From IMG/VR virus record IMGVR_UViG_3300049629_001293, positions 34,465-98,464 of that record: a stretch of DNA of 64,000 bases; one strand, 5' to 3'. How positions within the stretch are numbered: position 1 is the stretch's first letter; each line of letters opens with the position of its first letter. The position numbers and the translations under genes are program-made. Under the pieces are notes generated by a model that was given only the letters and a program-made list of their open reading frames with translations, was not told the origin of the DNA and ran no database searches. The stretch is from a virus. Positions 2,475-57,776 of this stretch are shown here, piece after piece.

Positions 2475-3128
<654 letters not shown>

Positions 3129-3785: not shown

Positions 3786-3802
3786 GGGGGTGAAATTCCC
3801 CC
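3786..3802 (+). other. Intergenic RNA hairpin, copy 1
   Basis: GGGGG (3786-3790), TGAAATT loop, CCCCC (3798-3802). The same 17 bases recur at 4717-4733. There is no T-run, so it is more likely an mRNA-processing or stability hairpin than a terminator. Confidence 0.55.
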
Positions 3803-3845
3803 GACTTCCACAACTTAACCTTTATTCCCCTAGAACAAACAAACA

Positions 3846-4400: not shown

Positions 4401-4476
4401 TTCCCCTAGAACAACCGAGACCTGAGCAAGTCTTTAAAAGGCTCAACAAACCATTATTTATTTAAGGTAAAAAAAA

Positions 4477-4707: not shown

Positions 4708-4716
4708 CCAATATCT

Positions 4717-4733
4717 GGGGGTGAAATTCCCCC
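4717..4733 (+). other. Intergenic RNA hairpin, copy 2
   Basis: GGGGG (4717-4721), TGAAATT, CCCCC (4729-4733), identical to the hairpin at 3786-3802 and in the same position relative to the preceding stop codon. Confidence 0.55.
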
Positions 4734-4772
4734 AATTCAAACAATCAACCAAATCAACTAAAAGATTAAATC

Positions 4773-5129: not shown

Positions 5130-5159
5130 TAAACAAATCAACCAAAGGAAAAAAATATC

Positions 5160-14085: not shown

Positions 14086-14093
14086 GATTCTAC

Positions 14094-14393
14094 TTAATAA
14101 ACAATTTCAGACTCATCAACCACTTTCCCGTTAATTACCAAAGGAGGAGGAGCAATAGGTTGATCCATCACTGTCCCGTCAAAAGTCTTCGCCAGTTCTG
14201 TTGCAATCAACCAATCGGGGTCGGGAGTTGCAGGGGAATTAAGCCAGAAGAAAGGCGAGTCAGGGTCTATGGCTGCCAATTTCTCCATTGCTAATACATT
14301 GTTCAGGATCGAGGCATAATGGGGCGTTGAGGATGTCCAAACTCCATTCTCAATAACTGCCACTACACCGTTGATTTTGACGCGATAAGCCAT
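14094..14393 (-). CDS. Hypothetical protein, 99 aa
   Basis: Not recognised. It starts MAYRVKINGVVAVIENGVWT, a beta hairpin, followed by helices (YASILNNVLAMEKLAAIDPD) and a C-terminal strand VINGKVVDESEIVY. Its stop lies 8 bp from the next start, and its own start is 1 bp from the preceding stop. It is therefore embedded in the effector operon, between two metallopeptidase genes, and could be a small partner or chaperone of those proteins. That role is inferred from position only. Confidence 0.65.
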   Translation of the reverse strand: MAYRVKINGVVAVIENGVWTSSTPHYASILNNVLAMEKLAAIDPDSPFFWLNSPATPDPDWLIATELAKTFDGTVMDQPIAPPPLVINGKVVDESEIVY

Positions 14394-14394
14394 G

Positions 14395-15561: not shown

Positions 15562-16658
15562 TTTCTCCTCACAACACTATAAATAAAATCAAACATTTCA
15601 GGATCATTCTTGGCTAGATATACCGGATTCCTATACATTAATTCCATCCCCATTGATAATATTTCAGAAGCATTTTTATATTCTTTGCCCATATAAGGAT
15701 TTAACCATTTATCAACTTTTGTAACCTCATCATCTCTATAGTTCTTGTTTCCTGTAACTTCGCTCATCTTAACGGTTTTTTCCCCTGCCGTTCGCTTTTC
15801 GTAAAAAGATTCAACTTCTTCTCTAATCCCTGGCACTTTCTCCTCTAGCCAATGACTCATCTCGTGAACTACAACAGCAGGGTCAGGATTCCCCATATAA
15901 ACATTATTTGTTTTCGGTTTGTAATAGCTTCTCCCTTTTCTTTCTGGCGGAGCATTAACTATATTAACTGGAGCATCCAGCCCTGGAATTGAGATCATTT
16001 TTTGGAATACCTCAACACCTTTTTGATGGGATCTAGGATTTCCGGTTTTGACGGATGAATTCAACTTAGTTGGACTATCCACTTCTACCAATTTTCTAGC
16101 CTTCTCTAAAAAAGCCTGAGCTTCTTTGTTCGAGGTATTAAACACTCTCTCCGCCCTTGCTGATAGCCTCTCAGCCTCTTGTGGGTCTTCTTGCGACAAA
16201 CCCTTGATTTTCTTACTGTAAAGAAGTTTATTCTTTTTAAGTTGCCGAACGGGGTTCTCCGATTCAAGTAACGAGGCAGTCCCTTTCTTCGTAACAGATG
16301 TTTCGCTAACGCCCTCGTATAATTTCAGCAGTTCCTCTCGCTTGCTTGCAGCCTCCGCTTTTAGTCGTGCTTTCCTGCGAGCTTGATTGATAATCTTCCT
16401 GTCCACTGCCAACTCGGACGCTTCTGTTTTTCTGGCTTTTTCTACCACGCCAACCAATTCATCGGCCGCGGCTTTTTGCCTTAAAGACCTTGCTGACTTC
16501 GATTTTGATTGAGCATAGAATTGAGAGATTTGTTTTAACCTCTGAAGACGCGATCGCCCAAAAGATTCAGAAGGGACTTGCCGGCAATTTTTAGAGACGT
16601 TAATACAGGCGTTGCCACAGTTATAGGATGTTGGCTTTTCGCATTTGGGCTTCTTCAT
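15558..16658 (-). CDS. Cys-motif zinc metallopeptidase, second N-domain-less copy
   Basis: 366 residues. It starts MKKPKCEKPTSYNCGNACIN, with the Cys motif at the extreme N-terminus, then a basic helical linker (RSLRQKAAADELVG, RRKARLKAEAASKREELL). The protease has HEMSH at 265-269 and ASEILSMGMELM with candidate ligand E332; the last ~100 residues are the most conserved part of the three copies. It overlaps the next gene by four bases. The 115-bp gap upstream separates it from the ART gene. Confidence 0.75.
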   Translation of the reverse strand: MKKPKCEKPTSYNCGNACINVSKNCRQVPSESFGRSRLQRLKQISQFYAQSKSKSARSLRQKAAADELVGVVEKARKTEASELAVDRKIINQARRKARLKAEAASKREELLKLYEGVSETSVTKKGTASLLESENPVRQLKKNKLLYSKKIKGLSQEDPQEAERLSARAERVFNTSNKEAQAFLEKARKLVEVDSPTKLNSSVKTGNPRSHQKGVEVFQKMISIPGLDAPVNIVNAPPERKGRSYYKPKTNNVYMGNPDPAVVVHEMSHWLEEKVPGIREEVESFYEKRTAGEKTVKMSEVTGNKNYRDDEVTKVDKWLNPYMGKEYKNASEILSMGMELMYRNPVYLAKNDPEMFDFIYSVVRRK

Positions 16659-16773
16659 TTCAGAACATCACCATTAAGTTTATTGGGTTACTTTTTTGTA
16701 TTGATTTTTCTTCGAGATAAAGCATAATTAATAGTAGGAATTAACTATGTTTTATTTGGGATTGAGTCGTCGC

Positions 16774-18189
16774 TTAAATTTCTTCTACTTCGACATATAT
16801 TGTGCCATCTTTTTTTGTGACATTCTTAACCTTATGTTTTGCACTTTTTGGTACAACAACTTCGGACACCCACTCATAACCCTCTGGGGTAAGGTTTTGA
16901 ATAGATGCACCCGTTTTATTTATCGCCTTAAGCACAACACGTTGTCCAGCATCACCGGCTCCTCTAAAACCAGCAAATTTTTCGGCAGTCTTGGGATCGG
17001 TAGTCCATGAAGCATGGGCACCTTGATTGTCTAATACCCCATCTTTGTCCCCTTTTAGCCAATTCATAGCTTCATCTTCTGAATCAAAATTCATCCCCCT
17101 CTGTATCTCTCCCTTGTATGGGGTCGAATTTGCAAGATATTTAGAAATTAAATTTGCTCCTACGTTTGGTCTATTTTCTTTTTGTGATCTTCTAATTGCT
17201 TCGGAATTATAAACCCACGATCTGACATATTTAACAGTCGCCTTAGCCTCGCCTTCTGTTATTTCAATTCCTTTCTTCCTGGCCATCTCATAGTATTCTT
17301 GTGGGTTTTTAGGTGTACTTTCATGAGTCCCATCACCAATCAAATTTGTTGGCTCAGGCTTCTTGGTCTCTGGTTCAGGTTTTTTAGTTTCTTCCTTTGG
17401 TTTAGATGCTTCTTTCTTTGGTTTAGATGCTTCTTTCTCTGGAGATTGAGTGGAACTTGGCGCTGTCGTTTTTTGGGATTTTATGTAGTTAGCAACACCA
17501 TCTTTTATTTTTGATAATTGAGTGCCACTAACCCCGGCTTTCGTTGCAGCTTCTTCTAGTTTAAGAACACTAACTCCTGCTTTCTTTGCCAAACCTTCTA
17601 TCTGAGCAATGGAAAGAGTTTTTGCTTTTTCTTTCGTCTGTTTTTCTGCTGGTTTTTTCGTTTCAGCATTAGGATCTGTTTTAGCTGTTTTAGTTACTTC
17701 TGATGCCTTGGGTTTTTCTGTTACTTTGGTTGTTTTTGCATAATCCTTCCCTACTTCCTTTAATTTACTAAGCCTCTCCTGTGAATTACTATCTTCCGTG
17801 CTGGATTTGCAGTTATTCTTAATATTGATACAGGCTTTCCCACAATTATACGCTGTCGGTTTAACACACTGTGGCTTCTTATTACCTCCTATCCCCGCAT
17901 CTACCCGATAGGAGTAGCCACTAGAGAATTCCTCCCAGTCATCTACGCTATCCATCCGTCCTGGGGTGTAAGGTTTAAAAGTGACTGATTGCCCTTTGAT
18001 ATTAAATGAAAAAATACGGGGACGGGTTGCATCCTTGAATTTGCCTTCAAACTCCCCTTGATCATTTACCGAAAAATCCAATATCACCACCGGAGCATTA
18101 TAGGCAAATGGTTGAGACAGAGTTTGGGCGATCGCCAACTTCATCTGTGGCTCGGTTGGCGTGGCATCTTTTCTAGTCGTTGAACTCAT
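16774..18189 (-). CDS. Virion effector-type protein: shared N-domain, Cys motif, ADP-ribosyltransferase
   Basis: 471 residues. The N-domain is at about 10-98, the Cys motif CVKPTAYNCGKACINIKNNC at 108-127, and a Lys/Pro/Glu-rich linker with ASKPK and TKKPEPE repeats at about 150-280. The C-terminal ART-like module (about 281-471) has R364 in GEIQRGMNF, HASWTT at about 392-397 followed by AEKFAG, and a terminal VSEVVV with E443. This is the R-S-E order of ADP-ribosyltransferases, although the residue two before the catalytic Glu is Val instead of Glu or Gln, so target choice or activity may differ from the tandem paralogue. Confidence 0.72.
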   Translation of the reverse strand: MSSTTRKDATPTEPQMKLAIAQTLSQPFAYNAPVVILDFSVNDQGEFEGKFKDATRPRIFSFNIKGQSVTFKPYTPGRMDSVDDWEEFSSGYSYRVDAGIGGNKKPQCVKPTAYNCGKACINIKNNCKSSTEDSNSQERLSKLKEVGKDYAKTTKVTEKPKASEVTKTAKTDPNAETKKPAEKQTKEKAKTLSIAQIEGLAKKAGVSVLKLEEAATKAGVSGTQLSKIKDGVANYIKSQKTTAPSSTQSPEKEASKPKKEASKPKEETKKPEPETKKPEPTNLIGDGTHESTPKNPQEYYEMARKKGIEITEGEAKATVKYVRSWVYNSEAIRRSQKENRPNVGANLISKYLANSTPYKGEIQRGMNFDSEDEAMNWLKGDKDGVLDNQGAHASWTTDPKTAEKFAGFRGAGDAGQRVVLKAINKTGASIQNLTPEGYEWVSEVVVPKSAKHKVKNVTKKDGTIYVEVEEI

Positions 18190-18200
18190 GGTTAAATCTC

Positions 18201-20150
18201 CTATACTTCCTCAGCTTCAACAATAATCCGTCCGTTTTCTTCCTTGACACTTTTAACTCGATGGCGAGTGTCTTTTAGCACCATAACTTCGTCTTCTTCT
18301 TTGATCCTGCTCAAATTCCTAATAGACACACCTGATTTATTAATGGTTTTAATGACGACGGGATACCTTTTTTCCTCAATAAAGAAATCGTCCGAAAAAT
18401 TCTTTGCTGTTTTAAGGCTAGATGACCAAGAGGCGTGAGCACCTTGATTATCTAGCACCCCATCCTTGTCGCCTTTAGTCCAGTTTAAAGCCTCCTCTTT
18501 GGTTGCAAAATGAATCCCTCGGTAAACTTCGCCTTCGTATGGGGTTGAGTTCCTGACATAATTAGAAATCCGATTGGCATCCTCGTTTTCTTCCCCTGCT
18601 TTTTGATCGACTCGGATGTCAGTGGCATCCCTTGTCCATTTATAGATGGCTGTAGTGGTGGCTGCTGCCTCCTTCTTAGAAATATTTACTCCTGCTTTTT
18701 CCAGTGCTTCACGATACTCATCGGGGGTTGAGGGCATGGATTCGTGGTCGCCCTTCCCTACTAAATTAAGGTTTTTAGGTTTTTCTTCGGGTTGTTTAAC
18801 CGCCTTTTCCTCGGATTCTTTTTGGGTTTTAGTTATTTCTGGTGATGGTTCAGGCATTTTCTTTTCCTTGTTAGGAGAAACTTCTTCTGTCTCAACGATC
18901 AAAACACCATCTTCGTACACAACCTTTTTAACCCGATGGCGAGTGTCTTTGATGACCACTACCTCATCTTCCGTATCAAAGGTGCTTAAATTTTTGATAG
19001 AGGCACCTGACTTATTAATTGTTTTGATAATGATAGGTTGTGATGTCTCATCGAACGCATTGTCAACAGCAAATTCTCTCGCTTTATCCCAATTAGAAGT
19101 CCAAGATGCGTGGGCATTTTGATTGTCCAATATTCCGTCTTTGTCTCCTTTTGCCCACTCCAGTGCTTCTTCTGTTGATTCAAGGGAGATACCTCGGTAG
19201 ATTTCACCTTTGAATGGCGTTGAACTCTTGACGTAATCAGTGATCCGGTCGGCAACGAGGCTGTATTTCCCTGCTTTTTGAGATTCTCTAATATAAGAGG
19301 CATCTTCTGTCCACTCTTTAACGGCTCCGGTAATCTTTATAGCATCGTCATAAGAGATGGGATTACCCGATGCTTTCATTGCTTCAAAGTACCCGTATGC
19401 GTCGCCAGGAACGGACTCATGATCCCCCTTCCCTACTAAATTAAGAGGCTTGGGTTCGTTTTCAGGTTCTTTAAGGGTTTCTGTTTGATCTTCACTCTTT
19501 ACAGCTATTTTAGCAGCTTTCTTCCCTTCTTCAAAGTCAGATTCTTTCCCTTTTTTGCTAGGGGGAATTTCCTTTATTGTTTCTGGGATTTTATCTATTT
19601 CTGGTGGTTTTTCTACCTCTTTCTTGGTTTTTGTAGTTGATTTAGGATTGGATTTCTTGGCTTCTTTAGCGTAATCAATACCAGCAGCTTTCAATTTCTC
19701 TAAACGATCCTTTGACTGAGCGTCATCGGGGTTTGATTTACAATTATTATTAATATTTATACAGGCTTTCCCGCAATTATATGCGGTGGGTTTAACGCAT
19801 TGGGGTTTCTTTTTGTCTCCTGCCTTGCCTTTTGCTTTAGCCGTTTTAGCCTTGGCATCAAAACGGAAGGAATAGCCTAATGAGAACTCCTCCCATTGTT
19901 CTACTGCATCGCCCGAATCCATCCGTCCTGGGGTATAAGGTTTGAAGTTAACGGTATTTCCATCTAACTCAAAATCAAACACCCTCGGACGGGCAGAATC
20001 CTTAAATCTCCCAGATATTTTACCCGTGTCATCTACCTTAAAGTCCAGCACGTCCACTGGGGCGTTATAGGCAAAAGGAAGAGCAAGAGTCTGGGCGATC
20101 GCTGCTTGCATTTGTACTTTTGTTGGGGCTGTTTTAGTCTCTATGCTCAT
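18201..20150 (-). CDS. Virion effector-type protein with two tandem ADP-ribosyltransferase domains
   Basis: 649 residues. N-domain about 8-98; Cys motif at 118-137; linker to about 235. Two homologous ART modules follow, each opening LNLVGKGDHES. ART1 has R319 in EIYRGI, ASWTS at 348-352 and E394-D-E396. ART2 has R544 in EVYRGI, ASWSS at 573-577 and E619-D-E621. Both keep the Arg, Ser/Thr and ExE signature expected for mono-ADP-ribosylation from NAD+. By analogy with T4 Alt and ModA/ModB, injected enzymes of this kind could modify host RNA polymerase or translation factors; the targets are unknown. Confidence 0.78.
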   Translation of the reverse strand: MSIETKTAPTKVQMQAAIAQTLALPFAYNAPVDVLDFKVDDTGKISGRFKDSARPRVFDFELDGNTVNFKPYTPGRMDSGDAVEQWEEFSLGYSFRFDAKAKTAKAKGKAGDKKKPQCVKPTAYNCGKACININNNCKSNPDDAQSKDRLEKLKAAGIDYAKEAKKSNPKSTTKTKKEVEKPPEIDKIPETIKEIPPSKKGKESDFEEGKKAAKIAVKSEDQTETLKEPENEPKPLNLVGKGDHESVPGDAYGYFEAMKASGNPISYDDAIKITGAVKEWTEDASYIRESQKAGKYSLVADRITDYVKSSTPFKGEIYRGISLESTEEALEWAKGDKDGILDNQNAHASWTSNWDKAREFAVDNAFDETSQPIIIKTINKSGASIKNLSTFDTEDEVVVIKDTRHRVKKVVYEDGVLIVETEEVSPNKEKKMPEPSPEITKTQKESEEKAVKQPEEKPKNLNLVGKGDHESMPSTPDEYREALEKAGVNISKKEAAATTTAIYKWTRDATDIRVDQKAGEENEDANRISNYVRNSTPYEGEVYRGIHFATKEEALNWTKGDKDGVLDNQGAHASWSSSLKTAKNFSDDFFIEEKRYPVVIKTINKSGVSIRNLSRIKEEDEVMVLKDTRHRVKSVKEENGRIIVEAEEV

Positions 20151-20251
20151 GTTTTTGCTCTTCCTTTTGCTTTAGAAGTATTTATACAAGAATTGCCGCA
20201 ATCGCAAGAAGTGGGTTTAACACATTTAGGTTTTTCGCTTTTGACCCACAT
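20147..20251 (-). CDS. Mini Cys-motif protein, 34 aa
   Basis: A short ORF between two island genes reads MWVKSEKPKCVKPTSCDCGN, then SCINTSKAKGRAKT. It is the Cys motif alone, with C10, C18 and C22 kept and the fourth Cys lost. It starts one base after the upstream gene's TAG and its TGA overlaps the next ATG (ATGA). The clean coupling argues for translation, while the missing fourth Cys argues for a remnant. Either it is a stand-alone motif peptide or the stub of a deleted island member. Confidence 0.55.
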   Translation of the reverse strand: MWVKSEKPKCVKPTSCDCGNSCINTSKAKGRAKT

Positions 20252-20252
20252 A

Positions 20253-21611
20253 CTATTTAGTTACTTGAGCAAAAGACCTCATTTTGCCCGCCGCGTTTTG
20301 GATTCCGTCGCCATATCTTTTATTGATATCAGAACCAGGAGGATATTCCCCTCTGCCTACGCCATTAAGAGTAAACAAATCATTCTCGTGTAAGTCAAGC
20401 ATGGCTCTATTAAAATCACCCCGACCAACCTTATCCCCCATTGCGTCACGGATCTTGTATATAGGGACAAGACCTCCATGATTCCCTTCTTTGTCTATGT
20501 CTTTCAATAGTGTAGATATCTCTTTCTGTATTTCTTTTTGATCAGACATCTGCCCTGGTTTGCGCTTAAATTCTTGTTTTGCTTTTTCAATAGCTTTTGT
20601 GTCTTTTATAACAAAAGATTGACGATTCCTGTTGAACATATCGGTAATTCCGTCCGAAGGATCAAATTGTCCGTCTGGATTCATATCCTCTTTTTTTAAC
20701 GTTCCAGTTTCTAGTTCGATTCCCTCGTCATCTGTACCTGCCTTTAGTGTCCATTTATCAAAGTCTTCTTTACTCACCCTGTCTTTTAATTCATGTCTCA
20801 TTTGTGCTATGTTTACTCGATCTCCTTGTCCTAACTCAAACGCAACCCTAGCTGCTTCTTTGACAATCTCCTTTTTAAAGGTGTCATAATCCTTTATTGG
20901 TTCGTCACTATAAAAGGGATTTGCCTTGGATTTAGGACTAGATTTAGCTTTGGGTTTAACTTCGGGCTTTGGCTCGATCTTGGCTTCTGGTTCTGCCGTT
21001 TTCTTTGTTGCCAATTTTTGACCAGTAGGCTTTTTACTCTCTGCTTTAGGCTTGGTTTGGGGCTTTTCTACAGTCGTTTTTGCTGTTTTCGCGTAATCTT
21101 TCCCAATTCCTTCTAACTTTTTAAGCCTGTCTTTTATTGTGGGATCATTGGTTTTGATTTTGCAGGTTTTCATGATGTTGATGCAAGCTGCACCACAATT
21201 GTAAGCTGTCGGCTTAACGCATTGAGGCTTTTTTTTGCCACCTACTCCCGCATCAACACGGAAGCCATACCCTGCTGAAAATGCCTCCCATTCTTGGACA
21301 TCTTCCTCTGATTCTAAGCTGTCCATTTTGCCAGGTTTATAAGGCTTATAGGCTACGGACTCCCCATCTAGGGTAAAGGAAAACACCCGTGGACGTGCCG
21401 CATCTTTAAATACTCCGGTAATATTGCCATTCTCGGCAACATCAAATTTAAGCACAACAACTGGGGCGTTATAAACAAAATCCATTGACAAGGTTTGGGC
21501 AATAAGTAACCTCATTTGAGCTTCGGTTGGTGCAGTACCTCCGCCACCATCCCCAACTAATACTTCATCTTCGTCAACACGGAACAAAGAACTTGGTTTT
21601 GTTTTTAACAT
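20253..21611 (-). CDS. Virion effector-type protein: shared N-domain, Cys motif, possible winged-helix module
   Basis: 452 residues. A 25-residue Gly-rich leader precedes the N-domain (about 27-120); the Cys motif is at 131-150 and a Lys/Pro-rich linker runs to about 235. The C-terminal ~215 residues contain two similar helix-helix-turn-strand units (VNIAQMRHELKDRVSKEDFD and VPIYKIRDAMGDKVGRGDFN), each followed by a hydrophobic strand, which resembles paired winged helices. No catalytic motif is visible, so it may act by binding DNA or a host protein. It is the first gene of the 12.5-21.6 kb operon. Confidence 0.65.
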   Translation of the reverse strand: MLKTKPSSLFRVDEDEVLVGDGGGGTAPTEAQMRLLIAQTLSMDFVYNAPVVVLKFDVAENGNITGVFKDAARPRVFSFTLDGESVAYKPYKPGKMDSLESEEDVQEWEAFSAGYGFRVDAGVGGKKKPQCVKPTAYNCGAACINIMKTCKIKTNDPTIKDRLKKLEGIGKDYAKTAKTTVEKPQTKPKAESKKPTGQKLATKKTAEPEAKIEPKPEVKPKAKSSPKSKANPFYSDEPIKDYDTFKKEIVKEAARVAFELGQGDRVNIAQMRHELKDRVSKEDFDKWTLKAGTDDEGIELETGTLKKEDMNPDGQFDPSDGITDMFNRNRQSFVIKDTKAIEKAKQEFKRKPGQMSDQKEIQKEISTLLKDIDKEGNHGGLVPIYKIRDAMGDKVGRGDFNRAMLDLHENDLFTLNGVGRGEYPPGSDINKRYGDGIQNAAGKMRSFAQVTK

Positions 21612-21630
21612 GATTTTACCTTTTATAAAT

Positions 21631-21702
21631 AGAAACCTTGTGAGTTAATCACAAGTAAAAACCTTGTGAGTCAATCACAAGTAAAAACCTTGTGAGCTAA
21701 TC
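21631..21702 (-). repeat. 26-bp tandem repeats with internal hairpins
   Basis: A 26-bp unit repeats with exact 26-bp period for about 2.7 copies. Each full unit contains the inverted repeat CTTGTGA / TCACAAG around a 5-base loop. The array covers the last codons of the gene at 21675-22094 and the leader of the effector operon starting at 21611. It could be a transcription-attenuation or protein-binding array controlling the switch from head genes to effectors. Confidence 0.75.
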
Positions 21703-22094
21703 TTCTCAACTAACTCCATGTCCCACGTTACGATATTTTTAGTTAGTGAGACTAAGTTACAAACAACTCCATCGGGAGGGTAAAATGTGGTGTCTGCTCC
21801 GACAATATAGTCAACCCCCTCACCCTTCAATTGTTCTTCTAAATAACGCCGTGAAATCCCTTTGACGGAATAGGATTTAGTTATTCCCTCCACTGAGCTT
21901 AGATTTTCAATCCCTTCCTTACTTGGGAATTGATCTTGAATAACCGGAGATGGGGTAATCTCCAGATACTCGTAATCATTGCCCAATCTTGTGCGAACGA
22001 CAAGGCTTCGAATATTGGGATTGCCAAATCCCCCCGCGAGAGGGGAGATCCGGTCTCTTAGGGCTATCATTTGCTCAACAAAGGATTGACTCAT
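21675..22094 (-). CDS. Putative head-tail joining protein, 139 aa
   Basis: Not recognised at family level. It has an N-terminal helix (MSQSFVEQMIALRDRISPLA), then beta strands (SLVVRTRLGNDYEYLEITPS) and a mixed C-terminus (VDYIVGADTTFYPPDGVVCN). It lies directly downstream of the DUF4054 connector gene and is coupled to the small gene at 22091 by ATGA, the usual place for neck or tail-terminator proteins. The assignment rests on context. Confidence 0.5.
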   Translation of the reverse strand: MSQSFVEQMIALRDRISPLAGGFGNPNIRSLVVRTRLGNDYEYLEITPSPVIQDQFPSKEGIENLSSVEGITKSYSVKGISRRYLEEQLKGEGVDYIVGADTTFYPPDGVVCNLVSLTKNIVTWDMELVEKISSQGFYL

Positions 22095-22276
22095 TTCTTC
22101 TCTTTGGGAGTATAAGCAGCCTGTGGGTGGTCTGGCTTGTCTAACTTCTTATTGATTTCCTGTAACTCAACATAAATTGCTGCCATTGCTTGCAGTTCTG
22201 GCGAGGCGGGAGCCGCTATTCCAGCAGAAGTAACTCGACCATTATCAACGGTGAAATCAGGGAACTGTACTTTCAT
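22091..22276 (-). CDS. Small structural-cluster protein, 61 aa
   Basis: The start is placed at the ATG at 22274-22276, which overlaps the preceding TGA by ATGA; a longer upstream ORF would lie inside the DUF4054 gene. The product opens MKVQFPDFTVDNGRVTSAGI, then AAPASPELQAMAAIYVELQE and a charged C-terminus. Not recognised. It could be a small neck or head-completion component given its location between connector genes. Confidence 0.55.
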   Translation of the reverse strand: MKVQFPDFTVDNGRVTSAGIAAPASPELQAMAAIYVELQEINKKLDKPDHPQAAYTPKEKK

Positions 22277-22608
22277 AAAACTAAAATAGGGGGAGTGAAG
22301 ATAGTATTGCGGAGGTGGATATATTGCCTCCCGTAAGTTGTCAAAGACCAATCGTTCTCGGAGCCAGAAGGGGTAGAACTTCCTGGCCCGGATGCGATTC
22401 CCGTGACACTAGAGGCAATATCCGCCTGTTGAAACCAATCAATGCTGATTCGATGGGCAGCAATCAACATAATTCCATCCGTTCTCTTGGGATCAGCCCA
22501 ACCAGCACAGTAATTATTCTCGGCAAAGTTTAAACTGTATTGAATCACAGAAGATTCGACTACAGCGAACTGAGGATAAACCGCTAAAAAATCGGAAGGG
22601 AGAACCAT
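22273..22608 (-). CDS. DUF4054-type head-tail connector protein
   Basis: 111 residues. Opening SDFLAVYPQFAVVESSVIQY, then NFAENNYCAGWADPKRTDGI, IMLIAAHRIS, a Gly/Ser segment (SGPGSSTPSGSENDWSL) and LTTYGRQYIHLRNT follow the DUF4054 pattern of small phage proteins encoded just after the major capsid gene. Proteins of this type form the ring between portal and tail. It overlaps the next gene by four bases. The C-terminus (IFTPPILVL) is short. Confidence 0.8.
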   Translation of the reverse strand: MVLPSDFLAVYPQFAVVESSVIQYSLNFAENNYCAGWADPKRTDGIMLIAAHRISIDWFQQADIASSVTGIASGPGSSTPSGSENDWSLTTYGRQYIHLRNTIFTPPILVL

Positions 22609-22611
22609 TTA

Positions 22612-23091
22612 TTACCCACGGATGTTCATAGTATTAACCGATTTGATATTCTTGACTTGCTCCGCTATTGCCTTAGAAATAGCGGGACGATCTTCTCTTT
22701 TCTCGGATCGTTCTAGCCAATCAATATCACTAGAATTGCGAATTAGATCTAGGGCATCTTTTTCAATATAATCAAGGGTTGTTTCAGTAGGAAACTTCCC
22801 TTCCTCTAGGGTGGGAGAGATTACTCTGAATGCTCCGCAATTAACAAGTTGCAATCCGAGGGGATGCCGAACAATATAGTCATAGTCCTCGTCGGGAAGC
22901 TCCAAATTAGTCCCAGGCAGAATCCAACTCCCCCGTGTTTCCACCGCATCCAACGAGGTTTTTTTGGTTCCCCCACGAGTAATAGGACGGGAGAAACGGA
23001 TCGGCGAAGTGATAGCCTCCACTGATATTCCATAGGGAATGCGTGGATTATGAGGATTTAGCTTTGGGTCAAAGATGATAGTTTTAGACAT
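22612..23091 (-). CDS. Hypothetical head protein, 159 aa
   Basis: Not recognised. An N-terminal extended region (IIFDPKLNPHNPRIPYGISV) precedes mixed strands (GSWILPGTNLELPDEDYDYI) and a C-terminal helix (ISKAIAEQVKNIKSVN). It lies two bases after the major capsid gene and three before the connector, in the tight head operon. A capsid-associated or head-completion role is inferred only from that position. Confidence 0.55.
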   Translation of the reverse strand: MSKTIIFDPKLNPHNPRIPYGISVEAITSPIRFSRPITRGGTKKTSLDAVETRGSWILPGTNLELPDEDYDYIVRHPLGLQLVNCGAFRVISPTLEEGKFPTETTLDYIEKDALDLIRNSSDIDWLERSEKREDRPAISKAIAEQVKNIKSVNTMNIRG

Positions 23092-23093
23092 TT

Positions 23094-24047
23094 TTATTCG
23101 GGTAATACTACAATGTGCATGGAGAATGGGCGTTTGAGGTCAATTCCCCCAAACTTAAACTTGGCACCACGCCAGAAAGAATCAACACCAATGGGACGAG
23201 TATCAGTCCACTTTAATGGTTGATAAATCTTAGCAGAGACTTTTTTGGGATCTCGACGGAAAGCCTGAATAAAGCGGGTAGGAGCCAAACCAATCGACTC
23301 TAAATATTCGGGAGCCATCTCGGACACCACACCGACTTCTTTGATGTTGGAGTTGACTTTTAAGAAGTGTTCTAACACCGTGCGATCTAAGGCAGATGTA
23401 CCAATTTGAATGATATCCGAGGAGAGGTGTTCGTAAGTTTCCGAATCCATCAGCAAAGTGTCAGGCTTCTCTCGGTTATTGGTCAACCGAGTCGGGGCAT
23501 TCACACAATCATTCAACACACTCAGCTTTTGTTGAGATGTTGCAGACCCGTTTAAAGGGAAGGGAGCATAAGACCGCAGGGCTTGGGGGTGATTCAAAAA
23601 ACCTGGCATCCCTGTTTCTAAATCTCCGTTTGCCACCAACTGATTGATTTTTTGTTGTGCGGCTTCTTGAATTGTCCAGATTTTGTCCTCCTCAATGCTC
23701 TCGCCCATTCGACTGACAGCCGCGATATCATCCTCGGAAACGCTATAACCTTGTCCCCATTTATGGATCGGCATCTTCATCTCGCCATAGACCAGTTCCA
23801 CTTCGGGAAGGTCTGTGGTGTAGTTTCGGATTAATTTGAACTGCCCGACGTGACGGAGCCACCGATATCCCCAGGTTTTTGCCCAGGGCTTGTTTTGGAT
23901 GTTGAGAGGGCAAATGACTCCAGCAGCGAAAGGATAGTCCGCAAGATCGAACTCCTTATCTACTTGAGCTTCTAAGTCCATCAGGGTGCCAAAGAACGTC
24001 CCGATTTCATCAGCATCCAACCTTGTAGTCCCGGAAAAGTTCATCAT
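23094..24047 (-). CDS. Major capsid protein (DUF2184-type)
   Basis: 317 residues. N-terminal arm FFGTLMDLEAQVDKEFDLAD, then FAAGVICPLNIQNKPWAKTW, EVELVYGEMKMPIHKWGQGY, a DTLLMDSETYEHL segment and the end GAKFKFGGIDLKRPFSMHIV. This order resembles the DUF2184 group of HK97-fold capsid proteins. Size and location after the decoration-protein and protease genes fit. No N-terminal scaffolding region is present; the acidic C-terminal part of the protease at 24897-26432 may supply that role. Confidence 0.75.
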   Translation of the reverse strand: MMNFSGTTRLDADEIGTFFGTLMDLEAQVDKEFDLADYPFAAGVICPLNIQNKPWAKTWGYRWLRHVGQFKLIRNYTTDLPEVELVYGEMKMPIHKWGQGYSVSEDDIAAVSRMGESIEEDKIWTIQEAAQQKINQLVANGDLETGMPGFLNHPQALRSYAPFPLNGSATSQQKLSVLNDCVNAPTRLTNNREKPDTLLMDSETYEHLSSDIIQIGTSALDRTVLEHFLKVNSNIKEVGVVSEMAPEYLESIGLAPTRFIQAFRRDPKKVSAKIYQPLKWTDTRPIGVDSFWRGAKFKFGGIDLKRPFSMHIVVLPE

Positions 24048-24066
24048 AGTTTAAGTTCTTTCTATA

Positions 24067-24897
24067 TTAAGGAACATTGAAGCCGATTAAAACGCACACC
24101 GCGCCAGTGCTAGTGACCACAGGGGAACATTTGAACTCAGCCTTCGCGGAGATATTAATTGTACCACTTGTCACTTTTGTTGCTTTCCCCTCGTGTCCCG
24201 CAGCAACAGAGACGTAGACGGCATCATTGATTGTGATATCCGTCTCAACACATTCAACCCAGATCCCTGACGATTCCCCTGTCCGGTCAACCACGTCCAT
24301 CACATCCTGATAGGGGTAAGTTGTCCCACTATAGTTTGCACCTTGATAAATCAAAGGTTGCATTTCGATGTCTTTGACGATTCGAGTAATCCCTAAGATT
24401 ACGTCAGTGGTAGCAGTAGGAAGTCCTGCAACTTTGGGGTCGGTTTCGGTGTTTGCTCTGGCAACAAACCGACCGAATGGTACGGGGAGAGGAATAATCA
24501 TCGCCGTGGTTACAGTTGCCGTTAAACTAGCACCAGTAACTACCAGGATGTTCTCGATACCATATTCCAGTGCCGTGAATAGCACGTTATTCCCACTAAC
24601 ACTTGCAATCCCCCGTCGCCCAAAAGCAGGGTTTACTCGGATTGCATTCAATAAACCAGCTTGCAGTTCCGCTTGAGTGGCACTAGCATCGGTTGTAAAA
24701 CGTGCCGTGCCTAGTCCGTTGTTTAACCTGACGGTATATACAGTGCTAGAAGCAGGGGAGGCAGGAATCGCCAGAGTCCAGACCTCTTTAACAGCATTCT
24801 TTATAGAAACAAGGGCTTTGACTCTCGGAAAATTAATAGATCCCTCGCCCATGCCAGGAGTCGCCCGATCAAATTGAAGATTGTAGTTGTACCGCAT
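24067..24897 (-). CDS. Capsid cement/decoration-like structural protein
   Basis: 276 residues, beta-rich and Ala/Thr/Val-rich. The N-terminus (MRYNYNLQFDRATPGMGEGS) and the C-terminal half (TDVILGITRIVKDIEMQPLI, INDAVYVSVAAGHEGKATKV) resemble the Gp24-type structural cement proteins found next to DUF2184 capsid genes. Residues about 40-135 look like an inserted immunoglobulin-like module similar to one in the protein at 33716-34372. It overlaps the protease gene by one base (TAATG). Confidence 0.65.
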   Translation of the reverse strand: MRYNYNLQFDRATPGMGEGSINFPRVKALVSIKNAVKEVWTLAIPASPASSTVYTVRLNNGLGTARFTTDASATQAELQAGLLNAIRVNPAFGRRGIASVSGNNVLFTALEYGIENILVVTGASLTATVTTAMIIPLPVPFGRFVARANTETDPKVAGLPTATTDVILGITRIVKDIEMQPLIYQGANYSGTTYPYQDVMDVVDRTGESSGIWVECVETDITINDAVYVSVAAGHEGKATKVTSGTINISAKAEFKCSPVVTSTGAVCVLIGFNVP

Positions 24898-26432
24898 TAT
24901 CTAGTAACCCCCATGCGTGTTTTTCCTATCGTTAAAGGCTGCTTATAGGCGTGCACCCGTCGTCTTTCCCCTTCGGTGAGTTCATCTCCGTAGGTAGATT
25001 GAGCAGGTCTTTTGAGCATCGAATCAAGGCGATGGGAGAACTCCTCTGAGTCTCCATCGTCTCCATCGTCTCTATCTTCTTCCTCCTCGTCATCCCCTTC
25101 TTCTTTATCACCTGGATCGGTGGGGGAAGAATCGTAATTCTCCTGAACGTAGGCAAAAACCCCGTCTACATAAGAATCGGATCGGAACGTCAAGTCCATA
25201 TTGGGTTCGATTTCAGCTAACAAAGTGCGTTTGATGTCGCTAGTAGAGAAGCTACTATCAAACCGAGCGTCAGAGAACCCTGGCAACAAACTGTCGGCTT
25301 CCTTCCATATCGCCAAAAGATCCCCGACCGAATCACCCCGACAAGCACTCTCATCTTCGTCGTTGCTATCAACACGAGGCTTGGACTTTTTTTTCTTTTT
25401 GGAAGTCGTAGTTTCTTCTTCCTCTGCAACATCCCATTCTTCCATCATTTCTTCTTCTTCATTGTCCTCCTCTTCCATCATTTCTTCATCTTCGGGAACG
25501 GGAGGCATCATTTTCTTTTTGCCTCCATCAACGCGGACGTACTGCCCCATGTCATTCCGGTAATAACCTAATTCACCAAGGACATTATCGGCATTGTCTA
25601 CGATGATCTCTAGGTTATCTAACCGGAACTGGTAATTTTCCCGTGCGGCTTCTAGCTTCCGGTTCTCCCGACTCGTAGTATCAAACCGTGTAACAAGCGA
25701 ATCGTGGCGTTCCTTTAATTCTTTCAATTCACGGAATCGAGTACCGCTAATGGAAGCGAAAGATTCAGGGATTCCTGAATACTCAACTCCATCGCATCTA
25801 ACTATTGCCATACGCTGTTCATTATCTCCATTATCATTGGTTTTGTTAGGGTTACTAGGGTTTTCGATGACTTGCCCTGCGACAGCTTGTCCAATCCCCG
25901 CAGCACTATCTAATCGGAGGCGAACATCTCCCCCTGCCCTTCCTCGGCTCGTCAAAGCCAAATGGTTGGCACGGACATTAATCTGTTCCCTGTCATAGTG
26001 TTGCCCATTCCACACCCCTTCCCCTTGCTTGATGTCGCAGGTATATCCAGCAGATAGTTGTTCCTTTTCCCTTGCATCAATTAGGGCGATCGCCTTAGCA
26101 TCAAAAAACGACACCAAGCCTTTGATCACCCCTTCAGTCTTGTCATAATAAGCAGAAGAATCAGTCATCCCTACCGTGTAATCCTTGTAGCTTTCGCTAT
26201 TAAGAAGTCCAACATAGGGATGTTCTATCACCAGGGGGAGGAGTTTGAAACTCTCTACTGTGGCCAGTTCTGCATTGGTTTCCGGTCTCCTGAGTTCGTG
26301 GACTATGGAGCCATCAGGCTGACGATACTCCAACACCCCGTCACAACAAAAAGACCCCTCACAATGGAGACGACCATCCTCAGTTCTTATTACCCTAAAT
26401 TTAGTTGGAGCATCGAGCCTGATTTCAACCAT
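24897..26432 (-). CDS. DUF2213-type prohead protease with acidic scaffold-like C-terminus
   Basis: 511 residues. Residues 1-175 match DUF2213: EHPYVG (70-75), VKGLV-type strands, LSAGYTCDI (126-134), then QINVRANHLALTSRGRAGGD (150-169). The family is the presumed capsid-maturation protease of DUF2184 phages. After a helical middle there is a run of acidic EE/DD-rich tracts (about 310-345 and 445-470) and a basic KKKKKSK stretch between them. That tail is likely a built-in scaffolding region removed on maturation, which is inference from phages where protease and scaffold are fused. Confidence 0.8.
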   Translation of the reverse strand: MVEIRLDAPTKFRVIRTEDGRLHCEGSFCCDGVLEYRQPDGSIVHELRRPETNAELATVESFKLLPLVIEHPYVGLLNSESYKDYTVGMTDSSAYYDKTEGVIKGLVSFFDAKAIALIDAREKEQLSAGYTCDIKQGEGVWNGQHYDREQINVRANHLALTSRGRAGGDVRLRLDSAAGIGQAVAGQVIENPSNPNKTNDNGDNEQRMAIVRCDGVEYSGIPESFASISGTRFRELKELKERHDSLVTRFDTTSRENRKLEAARENYQFRLDNLEIIVDNADNVLGELGYYRNDMGQYVRVDGGKKKMMPPVPEDEEMMEEEDNEEEEMMEEWDVAEEEETTTSKKKKKSKPRVDSNDEDESACRGDSVGDLLAIWKEADSLLPGFSDARFDSSFSTSDIKRTLLAEIEPNMDLTFRSDSYVDGVFAYVQENYDSSPTDPGDKEEGDDEEEEDRDDGDDGDSEEFSHRLDSMLKRPAQSTYGDELTEGERRRVHAYKQPLTIGKTRMGVTR

Positions 26433-26505
26433 TTCTCAATACAAAAAACAAATAATTCTTTTTAAAGAATAACGCACCCTATCAGTCATTTAAAGAGGGT
26501 GCAAA

Positions 26506-26529
26506 AAAATAATTTCTATACAAGAAAAT
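26506..26529 (+). promoter_or_regulatory. 24-bp operator-like element, copy 1
   Basis: A 24-bp A/T-rich sequence with a palindromic core (TTTCT-ATAC-AAGAAA) lies 36 bp before the HTH gene at 26565. The identical 24 bp occurs at 30139-30162. It is probably a binding site for the adjacent HTH protein. Confidence 0.6.
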
Positions 26530-26564
26530 AGACTAAAATTAAATCAATGATTTAGATATAAATA

Positions 26565-26939
26565 ATGACTATTACAAAAAGAGAGTATCCTTCTAAGAAA
26601 ACGTTAGGATCTGGTGCATTGGCTCCCTATCGCGCTCTCGGTCGGTCAATTCGACGAGATCTTATAAATGCAAATCTTGGAATGATGGAATTTAGCGAGA
26701 AAAGTGGGTGGGATTGGCAGACAATTCGACGGATTTTAATGGGGGAGCGGCGGACGGATTTTATAGAACTGTTGATTATCGCTTCGTTAATTTCTGAGGA
26801 TCAATCGGAAACGGAAAGACTGATCCTCACCTGGACGAAGGAAACTTTGAAAATCATCGAGGAAGGAATCCCCCAAGAAATTAACCCAGGTCTTGTTGAT
26901 AATCTTGTCGAGATTAACGAAGAGATCCCTTTAGAATAG
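26565..26939 (+). CDS. HTH transcriptional regulator
   Basis: 124 residues on the plus strand inside a minus-strand head operon. Residues about 24-75 form a Cro/XRE-like HTH (GRSIRRDLINANLGMMEFSE, then WQTIRRILMGERRTD), followed by a leucine/isoleucine-rich dimerisation-like helix and an acidic tail. The palindromic 24-bp element upstream suggests autoregulation. Its 3' end overlaps the convergent gene at 26914 by 26 bp. It may time expression of the flanking late genes. Confidence 0.65.
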   Translation: MTITKREYPSKKTLGSGALAPYRALGRSIRRDLINANLGMMEFSEKSGWDWQTIRRILMGERRTDFIELLIIASLISEDQSETERLILTWTKETLKIIEEGIPQEINPGLVDNLVEINEEIPLE

Positions 26940-27333
26940 CAATAATCTCCTGACGATTCCGTTGGCTTACTCCTAAAAATTGACGTTTAGGCATTTTCTT
27001 AGTGCCTTTTTGTAAATAGGAGCCATAGGGCAATGGAGTCCCTACCTCAACCCTTCCTTTTTCAATCCGATATCGAATAGAAGATCGCAACAATCCTTGG
27101 CGTTGTAGTATTTGCATAATAAAACCCCGACTAGCCTTGTATTTAAGGGTTGATGGGGCTAGGTGTTCCCATTTCTCCCCATAAGGACTCTGTTCCTTCT
27201 GGAAGTTCTCATCGGTTGATGCCACCATGAACTGCCCAACTTTATGCAGTTCAGGTGTGAGGTTCTGAAACTTTCTGATTAATTTATTGAGGTAATTTTG
27301 GACTTGGTTAGCAACGAATTTTAGGGATAGCAT
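26914..27333 (-). CDS. Phage virion morphogenesis protein (tail completion type)
   Basis: 139 residues. The core SPYGEKWEHLAPSTLKYKA, then LQRQGLLRSSIRYRIEKGRV and VGTPLPYGSYLQKGTKKMPK followed by RQFLG is characteristic of the virion morphogenesis/gpS-like family (tail completion and head-tail joining in P2- and Mu-like phages). It stands alone on the minus strand between the regulator and the polyvalent-type effector. Confidence 0.8.
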   Translation of the reverse strand: MLSLKFVANQVQNYLNKLIRKFQNLTPELHKVGQFMVASTDENFQKEQSPYGEKWEHLAPSTLKYKASRGFIMQILQRQGLLRSSIRYRIEKGRVEVGTPLPYGSYLQKGTKKMPKRQFLGVSQRNRQEIIAILKGSLR

Positions 27334-27439
27334 AGGGTTAAAAGTAAAATATATCCTAATTTTAATATAAAAAAGGAAGGCTTTAACACCTCCTCCATCT
27401 TACCGTTTCAGTTACCCTCTGCACCCTCAAAACCCTCTT

Positions 27440-27577
27440 TTAATATTGTTTTGACTTTTGACTGTTTTCTGTCTTTTGGGTAGCTAACCGATTCTTGTCT
27501 TCAAGTAGACGATTATACGCTACAACCTCATCAAGAACTCGGTTTTTTTCCAAATCGGTAAGTTTTTTGTAGTTCAT
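27440..27577 (-). CDS. Small overlapping coiled-coil protein, 45 aa
   Basis: This ORF starts inside the 3' end of the effector gene at 27531, in another frame, and runs 91 bp beyond it. It reads MNYKKLTDLEKNRVLDEVVA, YNRLLEDKNRLATQKTENSQ, KSKQY. The heptad-like charged helix and an AGGT six bases before ATG support translation, coupled to the larger gene. Function unknown; it may be a chaperone or partner of the preceding effector. Confidence 0.5.
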   Translation of the reverse strand: MNYKKLTDLEKNRVLDEVVAYNRLLEDKNRLATQKTENSQKSKQY

Positions 27578-29168
27578 CTAGTACCTGTTCATATACTTCT
27601 TTTATTATTTTAGCAGAACCTTTTTGATTATTGGCTAATTTTTCTGCTGCTTGATTCAAAAGTGTCGAAACTTTTCCTGTTAGCATTTTTTCTTGATCAA
27701 ATGCCCCTAGTGCTTTTTCTGCAATATCAGCAATTTCACTTGACTCCTCTACGTTGATTTTATTTCCTGCTTTGGCTAAATCTGAGGCAGCTTTTGACTT
27801 CCCAACAGTTGAGAATAAACGCTTTTCCCTTTGCAACTGTCTTTTTATAGCAGATTGAATCTGGGCTTTTTCAATAGCCAAAGAGCGAGATTCAGGGGAA
27901 AATCCCAACAAATCAAATAAGCCACCCTGAGATTCGGTTATTGTTGGGGCATTTGTTACCATATCGGACAATTCCTCTATAGTGTCATTAGTGATCTTTT
28001 TACCTTTTTTCTCTTCTTTCTCCACTAACTCTAGTAAGTCTTGTTGTTGGCGGTGATCTTTTATTTTAGAACCAATTACAACAGCCCTTTGTTCGGGGAT
28101 TTGACCCTGTACCACTCTATTAAATAGAGAGTCACTTAGACTAGCTAAAGCCAGCCCGTCCTCAGCTATTTTCTCCCTCATGGGTACGCCTTTTTTCTCT
28201 AGGTCTTGTTTTGTTAAACCAGAATCTCTAAAGAATTTAGCTGCATCCTGAGCATTGCCTCGACCTTCTGCGATATTTGTTAATGCACCAATAGCACGGG
28301 CTTCTTCTGGAGATTTAGCATCAATTAATTTTACGGTGACGGATTCAGCATTTAGTTTTTTAGCTAATGCAAGTCGGTTGTGACCGTTCACGACATAAAC
28401 ACCGCCATCTTTGGGATCTTGCCAAACTTGAAGGATGCCACCCAGGTTAGAATCCCACGTTTTAACTCCCGACAAACTCCCGACTTCTCCCGACTTGGTT
28501 TGCTCTCCAATGATCTTGTATTGAAATCTTTTAGGGTCAACCTGGATTTTACTGGGGTCGGCTTCTGCTATTCCTGAAGACAAGACTTGATCCGCCCCCA
28601 ACCGAGAAGCAGCATCATCCCACTTTCCTGCTGGTTTCGGTGTCAGCTTGTTATTCTCCTGCCTCTTAGCCGGATCATCCTGAGCCTCCTTAAACCCTCC
28701 CGCCATAGCTTTAACTTTGTCCAGCTTTTCCTGGGAAGGTTTATCAGGGGGGTCTGACTTGCAGTTCTTATTTAAGCTAATACAAGCCTTCCCGCAGTTA
28801 TAGGAAGTATTGCCACACTTAGGTTTTTCCTTCCTAACGGTCTTAGCTACATCGAATCGGTAGCAATACCCCTTTGAGTAGTCTTCCCACGCCACGGGGT
28901 CAACGTCGAGGCTGTCGGTTCGTTTCCAGGTAAACGGTTTGAAGGCAATGGAATCCCCAATCTCAAACTCAAAAACACGGGATCTAATGGCGTCCTTAAA
29001 CCGTCCTTTGATGATGTTTTTGTTGCCTACTTCAAAATCCAGAACGATAACCGGAGAGTTGTAGGCAAATGGCATCGACAAGACTTGAGAAATACCAAGT
29101 TTCATCTGCACTTCTGTTGGGGCAGCATCAAAGCTAGGGGGATTTTGACGGTTTAAGGTAGTGACCAT
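27531..29168 (-). CDS. Virion effector-type protein: shared N-domain, Cys motif, DdrB/ParB-like module
   Basis: 545 residues. N-domain about 13-108 (APTEVQMKLGISQVLSMPFA, GRFKDAIRSRVFEFEI); the Cys motif is a C-x6-C-G-x2-C-x6-C variant at 118-136. From about 195 comes a ParB-superfamily module with the box VYVVNGHNRLALAKKL (257-272), then TNIAEGRGNAQDAAKFFRDS (297-316) and LALASLSDSLFNRVVQGQIP. This layout is typical of the DdrB-like module in phage polyvalent proteins, best known from the P1 Dar antirestriction system whose proteins are injected with DNA. It is separated by 6 kb of head genes from its paralogues. Confidence 0.78.
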   Translation of the reverse strand: MVTTLNRQNPPSFDAAPTEVQMKLGISQVLSMPFAYNSPVIVLDFEVGNKNIIKGRFKDAIRSRVFEFEIGDSIAFKPFTWKRTDSLDVDPVAWEDYSKGYCYRFDVAKTVRKEKPKCGNTSYNCGKACISLNKNCKSDPPDKPSQEKLDKVKAMAGGFKEAQDDPAKRQENNKLTPKPAGKWDDAASRLGADQVLSSGIAEADPSKIQVDPKRFQYKIIGEQTKSGEVGSLSGVKTWDSNLGGILQVWQDPKDGGVYVVNGHNRLALAKKLNAESVTVKLIDAKSPEEARAIGALTNIAEGRGNAQDAAKFFRDSGLTKQDLEKKGVPMREKIAEDGLALASLSDSLFNRVVQGQIPEQRAVVIGSKIKDHRQQQDLLELVEKEEKKGKKITNDTIEELSDMVTNAPTITESQGGLFDLLGFSPESRSLAIEKAQIQSAIKRQLQREKRLFSTVGKSKAASDLAKAGNKINVEESSEIADIAEKALGAFDQEKMLTGKVSTLLNQAAEKLANNQKGSAKIIKEVYEQVLDELQKTYRFGKKPSS

Positions 29169-30162: not shown

Positions 30163-30960
30163 CACACCTTTTTTATTTCATTGATTTCTTAGTGAATAGA
30201 AGGGAGGCAGCCCGTTTCAGTGGGCCTGGGTATCCTTATGCCAAATCCTTACACATCAAGCCATTGTGAGGCTATTGTATCGTTCTACATTGGATACTGA
30301 GTCATCCATATAAAAGGACGGGGTTTTAAAGAAATATTCCAGGGATTCTCAAAAAGGGAGATGCAAATAGTCTGGTTTTACCATTCCCGACTACCTGATC
30401 TTTATTCAAAATCTGTCCAAATTTACCCTGAGCTACCTTCGCCCGATCTCACTTCTCCCTCAAGGTTGACTCCATTTTTTTTGGTGTGACAGGTCATATC
30501 AAAATAAATTGTTTGGTGAGGTGAGATTTTTTTGCCCTTAAAAATTCAGTGTGATCGGACACAACAGTTGCTATATACCCATACCCCAATACAACTCAGT
30601 AACTACATAGCGTTATAACCATATAGCTACTTGGTTATTTAGTAAAACATTCAAAAAATTGCTGTAATCTTTATGGGGGGCTTTATCTAGCCATTATAAA
30701 GGAATTCTTAAAATGGTATCAGGTTATGATACAAACAACGAGATAATGGCTGTCACACCAAAACATAATAGAAGATTAATACAAAACACTGTGATAAAAA
30801 TTCAGTGTGATCAAATTCAGTGTGATCACAGGTTAAGGTTATATTTTGGAAAGACAAATATACAGGGTCACTAAAATGAGTGTGTAGCCTTTAAAGAAGA
30901 ACACTCTCCTCCAGTAGATATAATGGCGGATTTTTTTTGAGGGAGGGAGGGGCCGGATTT
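30163..30960. other. Gene-free regulatory or replication region
   Basis: No ORF with coding character is seen over about 0.8 kb. The region holds GTGTGA-type motifs at about 30484, 30549, 30752 (inverted), 30789, 30803 and 30819, a 75-bp element repeated in inverted form at 55.4 kb, A/T-rich stretches and poly-T tracts. The repeated TTCAGTGTGAT iterons make a replication origin, packaging site or multi-operator region the best candidates. Confidence 0.6.
30752..30826 (+). repeat. 75-bp long-range inverted repeat, arm A
   Basis: Aligns without gaps to the reverse complement of 55436-55510, with six mismatches in 75 positions. It contains an inverted GTCACAC and two TTCAGTGTGA copies 15 bp apart. 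The first 50 bp hold only two of the mismatches. Confidence 0.85.
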
Positions 30961-55264: not shown

Positions 55265-55571
55265 TGTGGGGATATTTTAATTTTACCTTACCCGATCGCA
55301 CTACACCCAATCAATTTTTAACGAGCCTGAATTAAGCGAGGAGCCTTCCCGATTTGTGGAGGGTTTTGAGTTTTGCTGCGATCGCCCCTGTCACACTGAA
55401 TCCCGAAACCCCGATGCTGTATAATTTATGGGGATGTCACACTGAATTCTGTCACACTGAATTTTTATCACAGTGTTTTTTATTAATCTTCTATTATGTT
55501 TTAGTGTGACAAAGAGGATTCGTTAAAAGTATCACCATGATACAGTTTATTTTATTTTACCCCTTGACAAA
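55265..55571. other. Gene-free region with GTGTGA-type repeats
   Basis: About 300 bp without coding potential between divergent genes. It contains GTCACACTGAA copies at about 55390, 55436 and 55451, a GTGTGAC at 55504, a HIP1 site near 55378 and a TATAAT at about 55420. It resembles the region at 30.2-30.96 kb. Confidence 0.6.
55436..55510 (-). repeat. 75-bp long-range inverted repeat, arm B
   Basis: The reverse complement matches 30752-30826 in 69 of 75 ungapped positions. Both arms lie in intergenic DNA and enclose 24.6 kb. Confidence 0.85.
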
Positions 55572-57220: not shown

Positions 57221-57252
57221 AAAAGCCGAATCCCTTACAGAATCCGGCTTTT
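57221..57252. terminator. Bidirectional terminator
   Basis: AAAAGCCG at 57221-57228 pairs with CGGCTTTT at 57245-57252, with additional AAT/ATT-type pairing inside. It lies upstream of the minus-strand gene starting at 57126 and downstream of no identified plus gene, so it may insulate the structured locus to its right. Confidence 0.65.
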
Positions 57253-57579
57253 ACCTCTAGCTGTTTTCGATAAAACATCAACCTTGAATTTGTCCATTAG
57301 TCTCCTACTCTTTTGTGCATCTTCAGTCAAGAAATAAGATAATCATTAACTGTCAACAGTGTCAGGGATTTGAGTGGAATAGTTTGATCTTTAAAGCATT
57401 TAAAATTAAGTAATCGTAAAGAATTGATCATAATTTTTGTTGTTTGATGTATTTCTATTATTATATAATGATCTACACTTTAAAGCAAGGTGTGGGCTAG
57501 TGTCAAAAGAAATAAATCTTTTAACAACACTGCATGAAGCAGACGTTCACCCACGATCAAATTATAATATAGTCAGCTA

Positions 57580-57616
57580 GTATCAAATTAGTCAAGAAAC
57601 AATGCAATCGTTAACT
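57580..57616 (+). repeat. 37-bp direct repeat, copy 1
   Basis: Exact match to 57659-57695; start-to-start distance 79 bp. It contains AGTCAAGAA and CGTTAACT. Confidence 0.85.
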
Positions 57617-57661
57617 ACCAGGATTACCGCCAACAATAATCGCGTTGGCTTCATACTGGTA
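57616..57661 (+). other. Hairpin between the two 37-bp repeats
   Basis: TACCAG (57616-57621) pairs with CTGGTA (57656-57661) and GCCAAC (57629-57634) with GTTGGC (57644-57649), with internal loops of 7 and 6 bases and a 9-base apical loop. The near-symmetric structure argues that the inter-repeat segment is functional and not a random spacer. Confidence 0.7.
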
Positions 57662-57695
57662 TCAAATTAGTCAAGAAACAATGCAATCGTTAACT
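57659..57695 (+). repeat. 37-bp direct repeat, copy 2
   Basis: Exact match to 57580-57616. Its AGTCAAGAA can pair with TTCTTGACT at about 57709-57717, giving a second hairpin downstream. Confidence 0.85.
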
Positions 57696-57776
57696 GGTAA
57701 ACCTTGATTCTTGACTATTTACATTGTACACGAATAACGCAAAAAAAAACAAGTTTATTTATGTATTTTTAAAAGG

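Follow-up and report, generated by a model that had tools for sequence, protein, structure and literature searches.

What kind of element occupies the gene-free locus around positions 57420-57720 of the window, the 64,000-nucleotide (nt) stretch of viral DNA analysed here, which belongs to a 98-kb virus record (IMGVR_UViG_3300049629_001293, hereafter G000)? A first-pass annotation had reported no gene, and indeed no plausible gene covers the region; it had also described a promoter, a nested stem and two repeats around a double hairpin, and had proposed a structured RNA, an origin or a recombination site. On either strand, the predicted fold of the region is more stable than those of dinucleotide-shuffled versions (z -3.05 and -3.68). 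Comparison with related phages indicates that the locus is very probably the stripped remains of a cyanophage-borne CRISPR (clustered regularly interspaced short palindromic repeats)-IscB locus, whose intact sister loci would have an omegaRNA resembling a trans-activating CRISPR RNA (tracrRNA) and exchangeable CRISPR RNA (crRNA) guides. This identity could not be seen in the first-pass annotation, as the window lacks the effector and the greater part of the array.

The identical 37-nt repeats reported to lie 42 nt apart are present (57580-57616 and 57659-57695) and correspond to a 36-nt CRISPR repeat, whose first copy reads GTTAACGATTGCATTGTTTCTTGACTAATTTGATAC on the guide strand. The symmetric double hairpin is also there, and is the spacer itself (TACCAG...GCCAAC...GTTGGC...CTGGTA; guide strand CAGTATGAAGCCAACGCGATTATTGTTGGCGGTAATCCTGGTA), with one open frame reading QYEANAIIVGGNPG. 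Two near-identical repeats around one spacer, the arrangement by which a CRISPR array is recognised, are thus found in the window. The 25-nt core of the repeat matches at seven IMG/VR loci, and a tolerant repeat pattern at 21. Among the sister cyanophages, arrays of up to 19 copies are built from the 36-nt unit GTATCAAATTAGTCAAGAAACAATGCAATCGTTAAC or one closely similar to it, with unique spacers mostly of 34-46 nt (71 unique spacers in the relatives). The repeat was absent from the genome contigs searched and from 386 cyanobacterial genomes, among which the true host strain may be unsampled.

Intact sister loci have the gene order HEARO/omegaRNA, IscB of 432 amino acids, and array. In L013, which comes from a 78-kb record and has the locus at the same site, the HEARO RNA lies at 2143-2358, IscB at 2394-3692 and the array at 3791-5152, followed by the stem-loop called here motif A and by thyX. 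The HEARO RNA beside the array scores 123.6 bits (Rfam RF02033, cut-off 83). The protein scores 470 bits against a curated model of RNA-guided IscB (cut-off 175), and aligns with solved IscB structures over the HNH and RuvC-III domains and more weakly over the N-terminal RuvC-I. All 13 contigs with an iscB at least 96% identical have the array adjoining it; no such array was found beside 30 IscB relatives in cellular genomes or beside four other phage IscB loci (L128, L132, L133, L134). A type II (Cas9) CRISPR-Cas system is not indicated, the effector being this IscB, with Cas9 models far below their cut-off and no Cas1.

The omegaRNA and the array appear to form the two pieces of one IscB guide. 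In all nine array-less HEARO RNAs examined, the 5' strand is predicted to close the first helix (P1) in cis, whereas in the array-bearing phages the corresponding strand is predicted to be unpaired in cis; at L050, cis P1 is predicted only in a 70-nt fold. The exception among the array-bearing phages is L026, whose omegaRNA (HEARO at 1612-1819, upstream of iscB) has incorporated part of a repeat, GTTAACGATTGC, which restores P1 in cis. In the models, the HEARO 5' end and the CRISPR repeat form a duplex of up to 14 bp, and the GTTAAY end of the repeat pairs with GTTAAC, the 3' strand of P1. The predicted binding of the repeat to the omegaRNA 5' end is -10.6 to -18.0 kcal/mol. For comparison, shuffled repeats reach means of about -4 to -5 kcal/mol, and the opposite repeat strand -1.5 to -4.7 kcal/mol. 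A compensatory change is seen between subgroups, the anti-repeat TAGTC occurring with the repeat GACTA and CAGTC with GACTG; the GATTG of L013, whose HEARO starts at GTCAAG, preserves pairing through wobble. About 8 nt separate a TACAAT or TATAAT from the anti-repeat downstream of it, and therefore little space is left for a guide on the omegaRNA itself. A joint guide is thus suggested by the predicted duplex, the completion of P1 and the compensatory change. The downstream pairing of the second repeat described in the first-pass annotation was recovered at 57704-57720 (17 nt, 88% complementary), and is a tracr-like repeat:anti-repeat pairing.

It is proposed that the guideless HEARO/omegaRNA works in a tracrRNA-like manner, its 5' end pairing with the CRISPR repeat, whose GTTAAY end would complete the P1 helix. 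Each crRNA, with the spacer 5' and the repeat 3', would then stand in for the 5' portion of a conventional omegaRNA, giving IscB an exchangeable guide against related phages; transcription of the locus, RNA processing and cleavage are presumed steps. Such a split CRISPR-IscB system is argued from gene order, homology, predicted pairing with its compensatory change, and spacer matches to sister phages.

Regarding these matches, four of the 71 IscB-array spacers closely match sister phages, and shuffled spacers gave no such match in ten rounds. Spacer s0 (L013, L022, L043, L044, L047) matches a cas12 gene at 36 of 37 bases. This gene occurs in twelve sister contigs, in ten of them at the IscB-array locus, where it encodes a V-U2-like Cas12 of 557 amino acids (356 bits to the PADLOC model Cas12u2; 301 bits to NF038192, below its cut-off of 350). 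The Cas12 is accompanied by its own array, with the repeat CCCGCAATAGACGATTGCCTATTTTATGGATTGAAAC, and the last repeat of this array is fused into the last IscB-type repeat. No confident targets were found for the V-U2 spacers. We infer that the IscB and Cas12 modules replace each other by recombination, and that the IscB module carries a guide against the Cas12 module. The V-U2-like Cas12 and its array were also observed at a second genomic site, in L036 (record G007) and L034 (G012); in G007 the gene adjoins a large helicase-like gene.

The anatomy of the window copy (Table 1) is best followed by comparison with L013, to which its minus strand is near-identical as far as the 24th nt of the omegaRNA, the putative promoter included, before passing straight to the repeat; the deletion junction is 57694/57695. 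In the window phage, a deletion would have brought the array up against the initial omegaRNA segment of approximately 24 nt, with loss of the remaining omegaRNA, iscB and every spacer but one, and the window copy would therefore be non-autonomous. An iscB with omegaRNA beside an array is found in 13 sister contigs and not in G000, in which neither iscB nor a Cas12 TNB domain was detected; with Rfam, which covered the window and, within the first 34 kb of the record, 241 bases round the second motif A copy, no HEARO was found. In L042-type relatives TATAAT stands at the position of the window's TACAAT. L023 and L025 have the effector-less form seen in the window, with a different spacer that is the most distal one of the longer L027 array. 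An independent deletion was observed in L129 (3700-4700), where, after the omegaRNA, iscB breaks off near codon 78 and runs directly into a repeat.

Table 1. Elements of the locus, with positions in the window
Feature	Position	Strand	Remarks
CRISPR repeat copy 1, 36 nt	57580..57615	-	Identical to copy 2; unit recurs in arrays of related phages
Single spacer, 43 nt	57616..57658	-	Found elsewhere only in L011 and L019
CRISPR repeat copy 2	57659..57694	-	Matches copy 1
OmegaRNA 5'-end remnant, ATAGTCAAGAATCAAGGTTTACCA, holding the anti-repeat	57695..57718	-	Sequence equals the start of the HEARO RNA in L013
Putative omegaRNA promoter (TTGTTT, 18 nt, TACAAT)	57723..57752	-	From sequence; under promoter-scan threshold
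Decayed repeat, thyX side of the locus	57315..57350	-	Less decayed in L023 and L027
Motif A, conserved nested stem-loop	57491..57556	+	Second, diverged copy in G000 and relatives
Promoter-like site before motif A (TTGTTT, 18 nt, TATAAT)	57440..57469	+	From sequence; under scan threshold

Several results weigh against the interpretation of the sister loci as split CRISPR-IscB systems, with the window copy as their remains. Targets were obtained for four of 107 spacers, too few to derive a target-adjacent motif (TAM), and no consensus emerged. Spacer s42 is self-matching: the gene that it matches occurs in many sisters and also in the phage that carries the spacer, a situation not expected with an active nuclease except where the flank is unsuitable. 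For the window spacer, no target was found in viral contigs with a synonym-tolerant codon search, nor in the 386 cyanobacteria with up to three mismatches. Cas1 was not found in 14 records of the phage group, and the route of spacer gain is thus not indicated. In L013, moreover, the repeat binds more weakly, with six of 200 shuffles performing equally well.

As for what the window copy may do at present, we lean slightly towards a dead remnant, that is, a mini-array left functionless by the loss of iscB and the omegaRNA scaffold and kept by descent. This agrees with the missing iscB, Cas12 TNB domain and HEARO, and with the continuing loss evident from the decayed repeat and the truncated iscB of L129; it accords less well with repeats, anti-repeat and putative promoter that are all intact, or with the recurrence of the effector-less form, carrying two different spacers, in contigs of several metagenomes. 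It has also been considered that the mini-array acts in trans, its crRNA being loaded onto the IscB and omegaRNA of a co-infecting phage. The window repeats are identical to those of the intact arrays of L026 and L027, and archaeal viruses are known to direct mini-arrays at their relatives (PMC6858448), but this function is judged unlikely given a spacer with no target in the viral contigs or cyanobacteria and a repeat not found in the host genomes searched, so that no host effector is indicated.

A decoy, in which an RNA of anti-repeat plus repeat would sequester the omegaRNA, crRNA or IscB of a rival in the way of RNA anti-CRISPRs, is held to be quite unlikely, as the deletion by itself accounts for the anatomy. 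Several features are nevertheless in keeping with it: the locus has kept the 5' end of the omegaRNA together with its putative promoter, fused to the repeats, the minus-strand RNA of the locus folds on itself (z -3.32), another phage has a solitary perfect repeat, and repeat mimics are known inhibitors (PMC10651486). In addition, two IscB-array spacers have matches in genes of the window phage (4 mismatches for s12, 3 for s59), and this phage may therefore be under attack. The solitary perfect IscB-type repeat is that of L024 (7661-7696, minus strand; record G008), a record in which no array and no iscB were found, and it is a candidate RNA anti-CRISPR in its own right.

The nested stem described in the first-pass annotation, our motif A, was located as claimed, and is a structured element independent of the array, which may be a leader RNA. 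Its versions share the loop and outer stem, while the inner stems differ and in both cases still pair; the second copy in G000 precedes a rightward operon that includes a helicase. The original proposal, that repeats and nested stem are one structured RNA, origin or recombination site, could draw on the good folding of both parts and on the conservation of motif A with a varying inner stem, placed in both copies between leftward genes and rightward sequence. It is nonetheless very improbable: motif A occurs without repeats in L002, L006 and L010, and arrays occur without motif A in L026, L027 and L042, and these are therefore separate features, for which Rfam, applied to the window with both gathering and permissive cut-offs, offered no family. 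As structured RNA, the nested stem and, in a sense, the repeat/anti-repeat pair stand, while the repeats proper are CRISPR repeats; nothing in the analysis indicates an origin or a recombination site. The consensus promoter ahead of motif A held in part, with a perfect -10 box (TATAAT, 57464-57469) and a weak -35 box (TTGTTT, 57440-57445), and it fails a promoter scan.

A role of motif A as the tracrRNA was considered and rejected, since the two elements occur apart from each other and the HEARO 5' end is a better anti-repeat. In L002, a repeat-like stretch, ACTTGATTTTTGACC, follows the second motif A copy, possibly by chance. The sole outside match in a wider motif A search, L114, overlaps long open frames and was discarded.

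The locus is adjoined by a fragment of thyX (57236-57340, minus strand), a gene that is intact at the corresponding site in L013 and L014 and, in G000, elsewhere (L029, 11524-12243). With the window locus as query, annotated phages gave zero matches; the surrounding DNA is matched by one annotated phage, the Planktothrix phage PaV-LD, via one methylase gene region. Elsewhere, the window holds a repeated-gene family with the common motif KPQCVKPTAYNCGKACINI or similar (12526-29168), a 75-nt inverted repeat with arms 24.6 kb apart and 93% complementary (30751-30825 and 55437-55511), and 12-bp tandem repeats (AGGACATATAAC; 1747-1865).

Cas9 is considered likely to have descended from IscB, and the path from a one-piece omegaRNA to separate crRNA and tracrRNA is unsettled. 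If the reading given here is true, the splitting of an omegaRNA into crRNA and tracrRNA resembles the step assumed in the origin of Cas9. Closely related loci display an omegaRNA whose first helix is missing its 5' strand, a repeat that could supply that strand and, in L026, a re-fusion of part of the repeat into the omegaRNA. Moreover, one small phage group exchanges two RNA-guided systems at a single locus, one system having a spacer that matches the nuclease gene of its counterpart, and this swapping offers a natural system for the study of phage-phage competition in freshwater cyanobacteria.

Comparison with known systems places the window among several partial relatives. CRISPR-associated IscB, meaning IscB beside a CRISPR array, was reportedly described in the 2021 OMEGA paper, and the sister phages show the same adjacency. 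With IS200/605-type IscB and its HEARO omegaRNA (RF02033) they share the protein and RNA families, and differ in the predicted cis pairing of P1 discussed above. IscB is not mentioned in a review from 2024 on CRISPR systems of mobile elements (PMC11656645), and a literature search for IscB and cyanophage returned a single paper, about IStrons. The type V-U2 CRISPR-Cas system of cyanophage CL131, for which no tracrRNA was found, is likewise a phage-borne effector with an array (PMC6293099); its effector is a Cas12 and not an IscB, and is the nearest annotated-phage match to the sister-phage Cas12 (30% identity), whereas the window is effector-less. The freshwater cyanophage N-1 also carries a CRISPR array, a likeness at the level of description (PMC4916379). 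Virus-borne mini-CRISPR arrays have one or two spacers and no cas genes, are used by close relatives to target each other, and rely on host repeats and host effectors (PMC6858448); the window similarly has one spacer and no cas genes, but its repeat was found in phages only and no identity to a host CRISPR repeat was seen. RNA anti-CRISPRs are solitary repeat units borne by phages (PMC10651486); L024 likewise has a lone repeat, while in the window a pair of repeats flanks a spacer. Phage-borne V-U2 CRISPR, cyanophage arrays, virus mini-arrays and repeat decoys are therefore already published, and so is CRISPR-associated IscB. Set beside them, it is tentatively suggested that a family of cyanophages might fight one another with a CRISPR-IscB of split omegaRNA, which would alternate with, and guide against, a V-U2 Cas12, and whose effector-less derivatives, such as the window copy and the solitary repeat, would serve as decoys or guide donors.
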